Shown here: positions 9,711 to 38,638 of the stretch, piece by piece
Layout: every line of letters begins with the position of its first letter
Position numbering within the stretch: the stretch's first letter is position 1
DNA from: Mesorhizobium sp. SARCC-RB16n
Lineage (GTDB): Bacteria; Pseudomonadota; Alphaproteobacteria; Rhizobiales; Rhizobiaceae
Assembly (NCBI RefSeq): GCF_008520305.1
Contig: NZ_ML703296.1
Coordinates: 75,770 to 139,769 of the forward strand
Direction: 5' to 3'
Length of the DNA stretch: 64,000 nt
Notes under the pieces: generated by a model
Database searches by the model: none
What the model was told of the DNA's origin: nothing
The model's input: the letters and a program-made list of their open reading frames with translations, nothing else
Made by a program: the position numbers and the translations under genes

Positions 9711-9933
9711 CAAGACCCTCCTATTAAATCGGATTGCCCGAATTAATATGGGTCATCATCGCTTTATCACGGTTAATTTAGTGTAAACTTAAATAAATTA
9801 CCGAAATAACAGCCATGAAAAAACCGATGGTTGTCCTCGGTTGTATCCAGAAATCTCGAAAAGAAATCGTACTAATACTTAGGAGCGCGAATATTCATAT
9901 ATTTCCTGGAACCGAAATTAGAAAATCGACATT
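9711..9933. promoter_or_regulatory. AT-rich intergenic region carrying the SCPU operon promoter
   Basis: About 220 bases between the SCPU operon start and the end of the Ada-like gene are far richer in A and T than their surroundings (for example ATTTAGTGTAAACTTAAATA around 9776-9795). No reading frame or hairpin terminator stands out. The composition is typical of a promoter region bound by nucleoid proteins or of an acquired operon. I could not choose a specific promoter. Confidence 0.4.
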
Positions 9934-11802: not shown

Positions 11803-12297
11803 CTAGCGCGCTTTGGCGGTCGCCAGCGCGCGCGAGAAGGCGGTGGCAAAGCTCTCGCGGGAATCGGGGTCGAGAAAGCCGCCGATCGGCACGTTCTGGC
11901 CCTGTGCTTCCACGGTCATTCTGGTGATGCCGATCTCGGCGTGCCGGGCGACCGAAAACCGTGCCCAGAACGGATTGAAGCGATGCGCTTCCGACTTTCC
12001 CGAGGGCGCCGTCTTGCGGATGTCGAGGCTGGTGCGCGAGACCGACACTTCCTCGCGGGCGCGGGCAGCCCGATAGTTGACGCGGAAGGCGATATAGACG
12101 GCAACCACGTCGAGACCGAAGAAGCCGAACACCGGCCAGGCGCCGCGCGACAGGAAAAACGCACCCGTCACCAGCCAGCCGAACATCAGCGCGCCCATCA
12201 GGATCAGGAAGCCCGTCCTGCCCAGCGACCGGTGTGGGGTCAGCAATGCGTGAAAGAAGGGCTCGTCGGCCTGAAACGAGGCGTTTGTGTCGCTCAT
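11803..12297 (-). CDS. DUF2244 family membrane protein
   Basis: 164 residues beginning MSDTNASFQADEPFFHALLT. It has a short cytoplasmic N-terminus with PHRSLGRTGF, two adjacent transmembrane helices (~28-48 and ~53-72) and a soluble C-terminal half (FNPFWARFSV, IGGFLDPDSRESFA), the DUF2244 layout. Function is unknown. It is divergent from nth, with only 22 bases between the start codons. A minus-strand TATAAT about 8 bases before the ATG suggests a leaderless or very short-leader transcript. This gene pair is common in alphaproteobacteria. Confidence 0.85.
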   Translation of the reverse strand: MSDTNASFQADEPFFHALLTPHRSLGRTGFLILMGALMFGWLVTGAFFLSRGAWPVFGFFGLDVVAVYIAFRVNYRAARAREEVSVSRTSLDIRKTAPSGKSEAHRFNPFWARFSVARHAEIGITRMTVEAQGQNVPIGGFLDPDSRESFATAFSRALATAKAR

Positions 12298-35837: not shown

Positions 35838-35927
35838 GGAGAGGTGGCCGAGTGGTTGAAGGCGCACGCCTGGAAAGTGTGTTTACGGGAGACCGTAACG
35901 CGGGTTCGAATCCCGCTCTCTCCGCCA
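35838..35927 (+). tRNA. tRNA-Ser (anticodon GGA)
   Basis: Ninety bases including an encoded CCA. The acceptor stem is GGAGAGG with TCTCTCC and G73. The D-loop reads GGCCGAGTGGTTGAAGGCG. The anticodon arm is CACGC-CTGGAAA-GTGTG with GGA in the loop, followed by a long variable arm (ACGGGAGACCGT) typical of class II serine tRNAs. The T-arm is GCGGGTTCGAATCCCGC. It reads UCC/UCU codons. The adjoining downstream DNA is a low-GC insert. Confidence 0.97.
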
Positions 35928-36018
35928 CCACATCTCGATAACCATTGATTTGTAACGACTTTTCGGAACAGCAGACCGCCACCAGTTCTCTGCTCTCAAG
36001 CAAAAAGGCGTATCATCA

Positions 36019-37893
36019 TCACGGCGCTTTTTTGCGTACCCAGACGCACCCCTTACGCCGCCTCCGGTTCCATGAGGGCAAATCCATGCGCTTTGAGCTC
36101 GGCGTTGATCCACTTTCGTGCAGTCGTGATACTCTGACGATAGTCATCTGCCGCGACTCCGGGGAGGTCGCCCTTTCGAGATCCTCAAGTGACCATCCAT
36201 CAACCAACCGTTTACTGATCGCGTAGCAAGTGGCTTTGCCCACGCGAAATGCCATAGATCGCTGTGCCGCCCTCAGGACGATGCTACGAAGCACCTCTCC
36301 TTCTACCTGTCCTGCGAAGTGTACTTCCAGCTCCGCGGTCATCCTGTCGACTGCGGAATAAAGGCCATTGATGAAGAGCGTCTGCGCATCCTTATAAAAG
36401 CGGCCGGCACGTCCCTTCATCTGCTTCCCCTCGACCTCGGCAGGATCGTCCAGTATCTCGATCGTAGGGACGCGCTCAAGTGCCTTCGCTTCCTTGGAAA
36501 GCTTCGCGCCCTCTGGGGCCTTTCGGATTTTCTTCTCCGTCGCCCTCGAACCGGAATTCCGTTCGCCGCGAAGGAAGCGATCCTCTTCCTCGTCGTCTAT
36601 CGAATCGGCGTCAGCCGAGCGGGCCTCGTCGAGACCGACATCACTATCCTCGGTTCGCTGGGGCATTTTGAGCGACTTCACGTAGGTCGAAGTCGGCAAG
36701 CGGAACTCATCAAGTAACTTCTGAAGGTCGTTTTGCAGATCGTCGAGGTTTTCGTCTCTCGGAGGATGAGCCTTTCTGATGACCTCTTTCACCCATTCGG
36801 GCATTAGTTCGCGGACCTTCACGGCGTAGTCGTCGGTTGTGATCGGATTGCGCTCCTCGACAGTGGTGAGGGCGTCACGATACTGGTTTGGAAGAGCTGC
36901 GTTCTCCGGTAGGTAGATCTCGACTGTAAGGATGGTGGAGCCGAAAGGTATCCCATAATTTGGGGCGATAGCTGACCACTTGGGTCCGGTGCGGTAGTCG
37001 TATCGCTCGCCCTTATGGACCAGTGCACAGAACGATGTCGATGATGTCGCCGGGTTGTTGAGCGCGCTGATAGAGTGGCTATAATTGGCGTGTTTCGGGT
37101 CGTGTACGTACTGAATTCTCACGCCTGTCTCGGGACAGATGACAGTCTCTGCGTTCGGAAGTTGCGGTATCACGTCTTGCAGCGTTTTGAGGGTGCGAGT
37201 CCTTCCTGTTTCATCTCGCCCGCCTCCTTTCGTCATGGCGACATCCAAAATCACTTTGACACCCGGACGAAACTCTGCGAACCGCCGAAAGATCTGTGTT
37301 GCGACGTAGCTGCGGTCGACACGGATTCCCCTGCCGATCGGTTCCGATACCGTGTCATGGAGGTCGGCCTCACCCATGAGCACGACTTCCGTCCAGTCGT
37401 ATGAGAGATCGGCCGTCTTCCGCACCGCCTCGGTGACATCGAAAACGGTCTCCTGCCGCCCCTCGACATCGAAGGCAAATCGAACAAACGTATCCGCTTC
37501 GTCGTCGAATCCTATTGTAACCTCGTGAACCAAGCCGGCCTTGCAGGAGCGATAGCGGATCCCTGCGGGCGAGGCGGTCAGGCCGGAGACCTTGGCGCCT
37601 ATGCCGAAATTTTCGTTAAGCGACAGCTGTTTGTTGATTGAGGAAGAGATGTTCGTTGCCGTTCGAAGCTCCCCGGAATCCATTCCCGGTCCGGTATTCC
37701 AGAACGTTAGCTTTCGAATGTCTCCGATCAAAGACGGGTAGACCCGCACAGTTCGGTGGCCCACGGGTGCCAGTGCGGCACATTCCTGTGCGTTCATGAA
37801 GAACTCCCGGGCAAGTGTATGTCGCGGCGCTTGGCCGATTAGCCGGTTGATCAGAAACTTATCGTCCTGGATTGTCAGGCGTTCGAAGCTCAT
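36019..37893 (-). CDS. GHKL-type ATPase of unknown function (HSP90/MORC-like N-terminal domain)
   Basis: 624 residues starting MSFERLTIQDDKFLINRLIG. The Bergerat ATP fold is visible: N-box REFFMNAQE (E30, N34), G1 box NTGPGM (66-71, Asn replacing the usual Asp) and G2 box NFGIGAK (95-101). The middle (~200-400) may be a transducer-like domain; residues ~410-480 are charged and low-complexity (SIDDEEEDRFLRGE). The last ~40 residues look wrong: from about base 36170 another frame reads ADDYRQSITTARKWINAELK and ends at TAA 36053-36055, so one lost base near the GGG at 36171-36173 probably shifted the tail. Local GC is near 50% in the lines counted. The 73-aa gene lies 10 bases upstream. I know no named system with this pair. 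Confidence 0.85.
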   Translation of the reverse strand: MSFERLTIQDDKFLINRLIGQAPRHTLAREFFMNAQECAALAPVGHRTVRVYPSLIGDIRKLTFWNTGPGMDSGELRTATNISSSINKQLSLNENFGIGAKVSGLTASPAGIRYRSCKAGLVHEVTIGFDDEADTFVRFAFDVEGRQETVFDVTEAVRKTADLSYDWTEVVLMGEADLHDTVSEPIGRGIRVDRSYVATQIFRRFAEFRPGVKVILDVAMTKGGGRDETGRTRTLKTLQDVIPQLPNAETVICPETGVRIQYVHDPKHANYSHSISALNNPATSSTSFCALVHKGERYDYRTGPKWSAIAPNYGIPFGSTILTVEIYLPENAALPNQYRDALTTVEERNPITTDDYAVKVRELMPEWVKEVIRKAHPPRDENLDDLQNDLQKLLDEFRLPTSTYVKSLKMPQRTEDSDVGLDEARSADADSIDDEEEDRFLRGERNSGSRATEKKIRKAPEGAKLSKEAKALERVPTIEILDDPAEVEGKQMKGRAGRFYKDAQTLFINGLYSAVDRMTAELEVHFAGQVEGEVLRSIVLRAAQRSMAFRVGKATCYAISKRLVDGWSLEDLERATSPESRQMTIVRVSRLHESGSTPSSKRMDLPSWNRRRRKGCVWVRKKAP

Positions 37894-37903
37894 CGCACAG
37901 ACC

Positions 37904-38125
37904 CTATAGCTTGAAGACGTCCTTCTCAGCTGCCGACGTAGATCCGAACTTCCGCTCTAGATCTGACGTTGCATCACGAAGCGCCTTGGCAATTTTCTTC
38001 ACGTCGCTCTCGTCAAATTCGTAGGCTCTCCGGTTCGAAAGATTTCCGATTTTTCGGATGGCCTCCAGAGCCGCCTGAGTTCTTCCCTCGGCAAGCTTTA
38101 CGAATTTCTCCCTTTTTTCTGACAT
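37904..38125 (-). CDS. Small helical protein partnered with the GHKL ATPase
   Basis: 73 residues from the ATG at 38125 (MSEKREKFVKLAEGRTQAAL), with GGGAG eight bases upstream. The sequence is helical and charged, with the conspicuous stretch IRKIGNLSNRRAYEFDESDV followed by KKIAKALRDATSDLERKF. From memory, proteins with this GNLSNR-x-Y-x-DV-KI pattern recur in mobile regions of many bacteria, but I cannot name a function. It has no signal peptide or cysteine. Ten bases separate it from the ATPase gene, so the two form an operon with the small protein first. It could be a regulator, adaptor or antitoxin-like partner (inference). Confidence 0.8.
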   Translation of the reverse strand: MSEKREKFVKLAEGRTQAALEAIRKIGNLSNRRAYEFDESDVKKIAKALRDATSDLERKFGSTSAAEKDVFKL

Positions 38126-38638
38126 ACCTGCACTCCCGCGCGTGAAAGAGTAGTGATTCAACGACACGCAAAAAATGTCAATGTCCAGAGAATATTCTGA
38201 TGAATTTCGTTGCACATTTCAGAATCCGGGGGCGCCAACCGTTGATCTGGTCGAGCCCCCAGCGCGGTAAAGGTGCAGAGACGGCTCGGATCAGTCGTGA
38301 CAAGGGGCGATGAGTGCTGGGGCTGACGGTCCGCTCTCGAGAAAAGCAGGCACGAACCAAAGCTGCCTGGCAATCGGTGCCACCTTCAAACCGTGGCTCG
38401 CCGGCAATCGTCGAAGGCGACCTCCTCGCCGGCGGTTCGCCGCCCGCCTCAAAACCTTTATAAAATTCCTATTTCTTTCCCATCCGTCCCGTCTCGAACC
38501 TTTATGGCGATCGGGTCCATATTGCACGCCGACAGAAGCTTTGAATGTCGTCGCCATCAAGGCGACGAGCAAGTGCGAGCGGTTTTTGGCCTCTTCGATT
38601 GTGGCCGAAAGACACAAGTGAAAGCAAGGAACGCAATC
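38126..38638. other. Non-coding region between the GHKL cassette and kdp
   Basis: About 510 bases. The left part (38140-38220) is AT-rich (AAAAAATGTCAATGTCC, AGAATATTCTGATGAATTTC) and should contain the promoter of the two-gene GHKL cassette, including an AGAATATTCT palindrome. GC content rises again from about 38225, which probably marks the end of the acquired segment. The right part belongs to kdp. No convincing gene was found on either strand. Confidence 0.5.
38453..38509 (+). promoter_or_regulatory. Possible KdpE-responsive promoter region of the kdp operon
   Basis: AACCTTTATAAAATTCCTAT (from 38453) followed by a T/C-rich stretch, and a second AACCTTTAT at 38497-38505, lie 130-190 bases before the first kdp reading frame. 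E. coli KdpE binds a TTTATA...TTTACA T-rich site, which the first block loosely resembles. The duplication of AACCTTTAT 44 bases apart is seen directly; the KdpE assignment is a guess. Confidence 0.3.

Follow-up and report, generated by a model that had tools for sequence, protein, structure and literature searches.

In the 64,000-nucleotide stretch of the genome of Mesorhizobium sp. SARCC-RB16n analysed here (hereafter the window), a tRNA-Ser gene is followed by two genes, one encoding a 73-residue helical protein (the small gene) and the other an ATPase of the GHKL type. Our comparisons indicate that this pair is real, mobile and conserved, and that it represents a new variant within the paraMORC-like GHKL group. 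We suggest that it most likely acts against incoming DNA, from a phage or a rival element, as an ATP-driven mobile two-gene accessory unit, a reading to which we give about even confidence. On sequence comparison it is established that the two genes form a conserved adjacent pair, that they are transferred as a unit, and that the small protein also stands beside other GHKL-like genes. An earlier note on this DNA, made from its letters, had proposed an acquired and possibly antiphage module; the acquired two-gene nature is borne out by sharp homology edges, patchy occurrence, near-identical copies across orders and settings with plasmid and conjugation genes, and antiphage action is what we infer from the context.

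Conservation of the two-gene pair

The search of genome contigs found 124 ATPase loci, of which 80 were kept, and the small gene adjoins 54 of these 80, so that the conserved pairing suspected from the window is upheld. Among the 26 ATPases that stand without it, 20 fall in a single clade of 21 rows, whose remaining row is the plasmid locus L009; five others (L060, L064, L068, L073, L093) lie elsewhere on the tree, and L091 is not in the tree. A search of 13 loci revealed no trace of a former small gene, and the presence of this gene needs 5 changes on the ATPase tree. The small-gene-free sister clade is mostly of Acetobacterales; by eye, five of its loci carry fusions to tetratricopeptide repeats (TPR; L084, L087, L092, L094, L095) and three an adjacent TPR-like gene (L009, annotated as TPR, L078, L080). 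Upstream of two other small-gene-free ATPases lie DndB-type genes (L060:8355-9866, Pfam E-value 1e-27; L064:8385-9887, by likeness), and a DndB-type gene is annotated near a lone small gene on a plasmid (L100:1932-3005).

Insertion site and mobility

The single tRNA found by ARAGORN in the window is tRNA-Ser(GGA), and the coordinates of the open reading frames (ORFs) leave 10 bases between the 73-residue ORF and the start of the 624-residue ORF, which confirms the layout described in the earlier note (Table 1). The same note had put the G+C content here at about half, which is right for single 60-base lines and for the small gene (50%) but not for the whole cassette at 36050-38222, which has 55.3% vs 63.2% for the whole window; its line counts of 30/60 and 29/60 were correct, whereas the third line holds 41/60 instead of 40/60. 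None of 1144 other segments of equal length is as poor in G+C as 36050-38222, the minimum elsewhere being 58.5%.

Locus L039 matches 36050-38221 at 88.7% identity and L040 matches 36054-38223 at 87.3%, and no other part of 30001-45000 matches these two loci. In four genomes that are free of the pair at this site (L116, L123, L141, L153), homology ends at 35927 and restarts at 38444-38453; under other scoring, the alignment of one of the four, G034, reaches 9 bases past the 3' end of the tRNA. Judged by these edges, the window pair is an acquired cassette, inserted as a mobile unit. Signs of integrase-type insertion were not found, as the tRNA 3' end occurs once and there is no convincing flanking direct repeat. 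The idea that the pair descended at a single locus was also rejected, since in G026 it sits on contig C177, and the tRNA-Ser-kdp junction of this genome, on C188, is short (0.8 kb) and pair-free. A fixed tRNA home was likewise rejected, and the tRNA neighbourhood failed as a general setting: a tRNA lies within 2.5 kb in just 6 of 57 pair loci (L033, L037, L043, L066, L067, L074), a count that is a lower bound because contig ends cut several loci.

A search for the start of kdpA (E up to 0.001) gave matches in 59 of 61 genomes within the genus, three of the matches being short and chance-like. A tRNA-Ser lies at most 1.5 kb from kdpA in 2 of the 30 kdpA loci retrieved; for 13 of the remaining 28, about 19 kb were inspected, with an upstream tRNA-Ser in 9 and not in 4, which gives 11 of 15 inspected genomes and distances to kdp of 0.8 to 17 kb. 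Other genomes fill the junction differently: G039 with a 588-residue OLD/GajA-like ATPase (L144:14611-16374; best PADLOC hit GajA, E 7e-22), G038 with genes read by eye as AbiE-like together with transposases, and G057 with genes read by eye as integrase and recombinases. Because another genome holds the OLD/GajA-like ATPase there, the tRNA-Ser-kdp junction may be a defence hotspot.

The distribution of the pair is patchy. The ATPase has matches in 4 of 101 relatives, all near full-length, and order-wide a full-length copy occurs in 3 of 297 genomes (of six matches at E up to 0.001, the other three are partial). Near-identical pairs are present in different orders with unlike flanks; Maricaulis locus L017 and Pseudooceanicola locus L020 share 2428 bases at 96.2% identity (9441-11866 of L017, a stretch that includes the start of the small gene at 9758 and closes with the ATPase stop codon at 11866), and beyond this stretch they have one 49-base match and nothing more. 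A tree of 83 ATPases was built by a quick method; it excludes L045, whose ATPase frame is broken, L010, L091 and loci that were cut or duplicated (L001-L005, L011). The order labels on this tree require 25 changes, with 10 as the least possible and 46.4 as the shuffled mean. The family thus appears clustered by order yet far from strictly vertical, and the tree is a lead to transfer, not proof of it. It is very improbable that the ATPase is a vertically inherited chaperone or repair enzyme with a housekeeping role. Hsp90 co-chaperones carry TPR repeats, and the Hsp90-like core, the TPR-like repeats fused or adjacent in some members of the small-gene-free clade and the clustering of order labels would all suit such a role, but the patchy presence, the 25 label changes where 10 suffice (by themselves no proof of transfer), the near-identical pairs across orders with unlike flanks and the differing sites even among near relatives contradict it for the clade with the small gene; the TPR clade is not covered by that contradiction.

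Since the genes in retrieved loci are longest-ORF calls and near-duplicate loci were not collapsed, the following counts of neighbours of the pair are approximate: of 58 two-gene loci, 7 have a Gabija-like gene pair nearby (confirmed by PADLOC for L007), 7 a coupling-protein (TraG/VirD4) gene and 6 a phage-type integrase (the one in L022 is supported by Pfam). A VirB11/TrbB-like gene precedes the small gene by 139 bases in L055 and by 137 in L056 (Pfam for L056), TrbL lies downstream in L055, as does a TrbE-like gene in L052. These settings bear on another explanation, in which the pair would serve its mobile carrier, by aiding the transfer or persistence of a plasmid or an integrative and conjugative element (ICE) or by shielding it from host defence, instead of defending the host. 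The closeness to VirB11/TrbB-like genes with more conjugation genes after, the coupling-protein genes and the occurrence on plasmids favour it, but the pair is also found away from transfer genes, as at the kdp junction of the window, inspection by eye of the ORFs listed up to about 5 kb away in L039, L040 and L034 revealed no recognisable transfer gene, and Gabija-like genes are among the neighbours; we regard this explanation as rather unlikely.

The small protein and its wider family of partners

The structure model of the small protein (pLDDT 88.7, pTM 0.67) shows a hairpin of two helices and a tail of low confidence. Four residues, F9, R16, Y36 and F72 (numbering of L102), are invariant in 20 diverse small proteins, F72 being the F of a C-terminal F-K-L-like tail. 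Profiles of Pfam, PADLOC, NCBIfam and PHROG gave weak and unconvincing hits only, and no description of the small gene was found in the portions of literature covered by our search, which bioRxiv and most subscription papers lie outside.

Searches with the small protein alone lead back to GHKL-like genes. At the phylum level it was found in 5 of 299 genomes, each time beside such a gene (once with a Vsr gene between), and at the class level in 20 of 385 genomes, with 25 matched rows that make up 19 strong places (E below 1e-11, a gene split in two being counted once) and 5 weak ones. Seventeen of the 19 strong places adjoin a GHKL-like gene: one of the window family, five of the PDC-M33A type, nine of a type of 820-850 aa and two of a 558-aa type, in which one gene lies between the small gene and the ATPase. 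Within these counts, the partner frame is broken in G780 and G729, one small gene is split in G888, the 558-aa cases G738 and G820 show the same sequence, and G172 and G233 occur in both searches. The weak matches (G741, G620, G910, G834, G669) were excluded from the 17 of 19; in the three inspected, that is, all except G910 and G834, no GHKL-like gene was recognised. In G642, the gene beside the small gene was read as DUF262, and in L219 a 534-residue protein read as DUF262 (GmrS-like) takes the place of a GHKL gene about 160 bases past the small gene.

Plasmids and viral contigs add further partners. Of 15 matching plasmid records 12 were inspected and 8 have the small gene beside a GHKL-like gene (3 of the window family, 4 of PDC-M33 type and 1 of an 800-aa type); L101, one of the GHKL-free plasmids, has a shortened small gene followed by an IS3 transposase. 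Among 14 loci on viral contigs, 9 have a GHKL-like gene (in L181 it comes after a methylase gene) and 1 lies at a contig end. The records NZ_CP097546, NZ_CP123850, NZ_CP118719, a second place in NZ_CP140867, MT837361 and OQ587940 stand outside the counts for inspected plasmid and phage records. Synechococcus phages S-CRES3 and S-CRES1 carry a gene of the small family (L108:5001-5249, L109:4986-5261) with no adjacent GHKL-like gene, possibly a decoy or counter-defence protein. The hosts of the records inspected belong to Pseudomonadota, Bacillota, Deinococcota and Actinomycetota.

Pfam places the 558-aa type in HATPase_c_3 (E 3e-12), and the PDC-M33A, 820-850-aa and 800-aa types are called GHKL-like by reading N-box and glycine-box motifs. 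None of 16 partner proteins was hit by a hidden Markov model (HMM) of the window family, and three HMMs built from partner families detected no proteins beyond their own members. To probe a common origin of the partner ATPases, the window family was compared by hhalign with two partner alignments, which gave a short alignment of the G2 box (E 0.027) and a meaningless one (E 0.2). Because the partner families do not cross-match, it would seem that either several ATPase families recruited the small protein, or ancient families diverged and kept a recognisable partner. Found without an ATPase query and beside a GHKL-like gene in most strong places, the small protein appears to be the more general part of the pair system.

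The ATPase family

In line with the claim of an intact N-box and G2 box in the window ATPase, the N-box residues R29, E30, N34 and E37 and the G2 box NFG[IM]GAKV, which is of the G-x-G-x-K type, are common to all 54 aligned family members, window included. The usual form of the G1 box is D-x-G-x-G; here G68 and G70 are present in 54 of 54 and the first position is Asn (N66) in 54 of 54. A scan of 94 ORFs, some of them duplicates, recovered the G1 pattern in 82, its first residue being Asn in 81 and Asp in L010. N66 in place of the Asp may alter nucleotide specificity.

The folds of both proteins are predicted. In the ATPase model, residues 1-378 form a core like those of Hsp90, MORC, MutL and Topo VI-B, after which come a linker that is disordered and a C-terminal domain made mostly of helices; the protein is thus predicted to have a Bergerat-type fold followed by an S5-like domain, in keeping with the GHKL superfamily; structure-search matches barely cover the C-terminal domain and are uninformative for it. 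The ATPase had no match among Pfam (up to E 1), PADLOC, NCBIfam or PHROG profiles, PDB profiles gave nothing useful for either window protein, and no nuclease motif was recognised in the ATPase.

The altered C-terminus of the window copy

Relative to L001, L006 and L007, 10 bases are absent from the window ATPase at 36154/36155; the frame is shifted from residue 584, over the last 41 codons, and the conserved SPESLSLAADDY block is gone, while the listed end of the ATPase (36019) lies about 30 bases beyond the end of homology at 36050-36054. Since the ratio of nonsynonymous to synonymous substitution rates (dN/dS) up to codon 580 is as low between the window and L039 (0.106) or L040 (0.100) as between L039 and L040 (0.106), the loss would be either a recent change or a sequencing error. 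For the small gene the ratio is 0.046 against L039 and 0.034 against L040. It is a serious possibility, if somewhat short of even, that the cassette is decaying in this genome, the deletion having inactivated the ATPase and left a remnant of a conserved system. The missing bases with their frame shift, the lost block and the intact copies held by relatives point that way, but the low dN/dS and the entire ATPase core still present do not.

The state of this copy also bears on an abortive-infection or toxin-antitoxin-like pair, in which the ATPase would be harmful once released and the small protein would restrain it until infection. Two observations speak for it: in the window, L006, L007 and L008 the small gene precedes the ATPase, at a distance of 10-12 bases, and across one and the same set of seven loci the small protein is more conserved than the ATPase. 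We nonetheless consider it unlikely, as 26 of 80 ATPases have no adjacent small protein, and strict co-dependence is not seen where L101 has a shortened small gene without an adjacent ATPase and the window an altered ATPase.

Table 1. Coordinates of the cassette, its site and one further partner arrangement (window positions unless a locus is given)
Feature	Position	Strand	Basis or remark
tRNA-Ser (GGA)	35838..35927	+	ARAGORN; boundary of homology to four related genomes at its 3' end
Variable interval from tRNA-Ser to the kdp operon; site of the acquired cassette	35928..38443	.	Junction comparison among related genomes
Transferred unit, two genes and ~97 bases ahead of the small gene	36050..38222	-	Homology to other pair copies
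GHKL+S5-type ATPase ORF, 624 aa; residues 1-583 match the family, 584-624 form an out-of-frame tail	36019..37893	-	ORF list, family alignment, structure search
Junction 36154/36155, site of 10 bases missing relative to relatives	36150..36159	-	Alignment to relatives
Small gene, 73 aa; predicted two-helix hairpin (3-30, 39-61), low-confidence tail with terminal F-K-L	37904..38125	-	ORF list, family alignment, structure model
Small gene, 219-aa ORF and 558-aa HATPase_c_3 protein	L223:1612-4189, also L225		Further GHKL partner family

Relation to known systems

The earlier statement that the cassette matches no named system stands for the two window proteins, neither of which matches any PADLOC family, PDC-M33A/B/C included, up to E 1, but not for relatives of the small gene, which sit in the PADLOC candidate PDC-M33. 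This candidate comprises M33A, which is GHKL-like, M33B and M33C/DUF6339. In L103, the small gene precedes three genes that match PDC-M33A, B and C with E-values of 1e-209, 1e-81 and 2e-94. The small gene is the immediate upstream neighbour of M33A in both L103 and L096; in L098 a Vsr gene separates the two. L104, L105 and L106 have the same layout, the PADLOC assignment resting on scans of L103, L096 and L098. PDC-M33 thus appears to have a fourth, unmodelled gene in L103:7992-11742, and the two small proteins scanned (window and L096) had no PADLOC hit. It differs from the window pair in that its ATPase is of another family (hhalign aligns the G2 box alone), in its two further genes and in the Dcm, Vsr or endonuclease genes nearby; Dcm, Vsr or restriction genes lie near L098 (Pfam), L103, L104, L105 and L106 (annotated), and L096 and L184 (by eye). 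Gabija (GajA/GajB), a neighbour of the pair in several genomes, is a separate system, as L017 and L018 share the pair, with a 3.3-kb stretch that holds the Gabija-like genes of L017 being absent from L018.

The paraMORC/MORC ATPases of restriction-modification (RM) operons, with GHKL and S5 modules, were described in 2008 by Iyer, Abhiman and Aravind (PMC2292703), who, in the sections available, propose that they loop DNA from recognition to cleavage sites. The window family shares with them the N-terminal GHKL and S5-like module, lateral mobility and hotspots, and other small-gene systems share the Dcm and Vsr neighbours. It differs by the Asn at G1 and by lacking the MORC S5 motif GhXhhpXXRhl (0 of 54 ATPases), no methylase or helicase was recognised beside the window pair, and those sections hold no description of a small partner gene. 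Traits of single paraMORC families were looked for as well: no alignment column has His in at least 70% of the 54 rows, as the ExxxH in the S5 domain of paraMORC2 or the HxH in the C-terminal domain of paraMORC5 would require; no ExK of the C-terminal PD-(D/E)xK nuclease (DUF4263) of paraMORC3 or Shedu type I-D is conserved at 70%, nor is there a Pfam match up to E 1; and for the C-terminal or adjacent TIR domain of paraMORC4 the ATPase has no Pfam match and the small protein only three weak non-TIR matches. The window ATPase has a C-terminal extension, which may or may not correspond to the one that paraMORC1 proteins of MORC/RM operons carry after their GHKL and S5 modules; no RM gene was recognised beside the window pair.

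Two described immune proteins come close in part, as far as the accessible text of their reports goes. VcSduA (Shedu with a GHKL N-terminus, formerly paraMORC3; PMC12137116) is a phage-defence GHKL ATPase and a proposed dimer clamp, but it has its own DUF4263 nuclease, of which none was found in the window ATPase, and the latter has a separate small partner. CapK/CapS (PMC13373217) combines a GHKL protein of an immune locus with a smaller partner, but CapK is a kinase of HTH-STAS-GHKL architecture and CapS a repressor of STAS-wHTH architecture; the window pair shows neither, as its proteins have no Pfam STAS or HTH match and the small one is predicted as two helices. PMC8011034, in the part available, concerns other GHKL-type genes near Vsr and methylases. 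No paper explaining how most GHKL ATPases of restriction operons act was found within the search coverage given above.

Proposed function and implications

On the reading that we prefer, plasmids, ICEs and islands would carry a conflict module whose large protein probably forms a dimer when it binds nucleotide and shuts like a clamp. The small protein would be its dedicated partner, most likely an adaptor linking the clamp to DNA or to an effector. MORC proteins entrap or silence DNA, and the absence of a recognised nuclease motif favours a window version that probably entraps or silences DNA, or passes it to nucleases in trans; neighbours such as Gabija could possibly receive it. Co-transcription, the clamp, the partner contact, the target and the defensive role are all what we infer.

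Several observations weigh against this reading. The ATPase can work without the small gene, because 26 of the 80 ATPase loci lack it, and 44 weaker relatives were not kept. Two of the 19 strong places (G642, G862), 4 of the 12 plasmids and 4 of the 14 viral contigs have the small gene with no GHKL-like neighbour, as do both phage records inspected among the 4 that match (the Synechococcus phages), and most of the small proteins that went into the class-search profile had themselves come from places beside GHKL-like genes. Pfam and PDB profiles give no support for GHKL membership of the three motif-called partner families, and for the window ATPase itself, Foldseek TM-scores by query length are 0.27-0.37 among the matches listed. 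The C-terminus of the window copy is, by alignment, frameshifted, and the window pair has no recognised methylase gene beside it, in contrast to several of the other partner families of the small gene.

Relatives of the small protein adjoin ATPases of several unlike kinds, frequently within DNA-restriction clusters, and the protein may therefore be a common component of bacterial immunity that has been overlooked. More tentatively, and at somewhat less than even confidence, the two-helix F-K-L protein could be a general adaptor of GHKL-ATPase-based bacterial immunity that serves up to five distinct GHKL or GHKL-like families in Pseudomonadota, Bacillota, Deinococcota and Actinomycetota, with the window family as a new nuclease-free, possibly MORC-like branch that entraps or silences DNA and has an altered Asn pocket. 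The shared 73-residue partner, which is easy to clone, would give a handle on several GHKL families together, and defence-finding tools could use the small gene to probe for systems as yet unlisted. If no nuclease takes part in the action of the window branch, bacteria would have a counterpart to the MORC silencing of foreign DNA.
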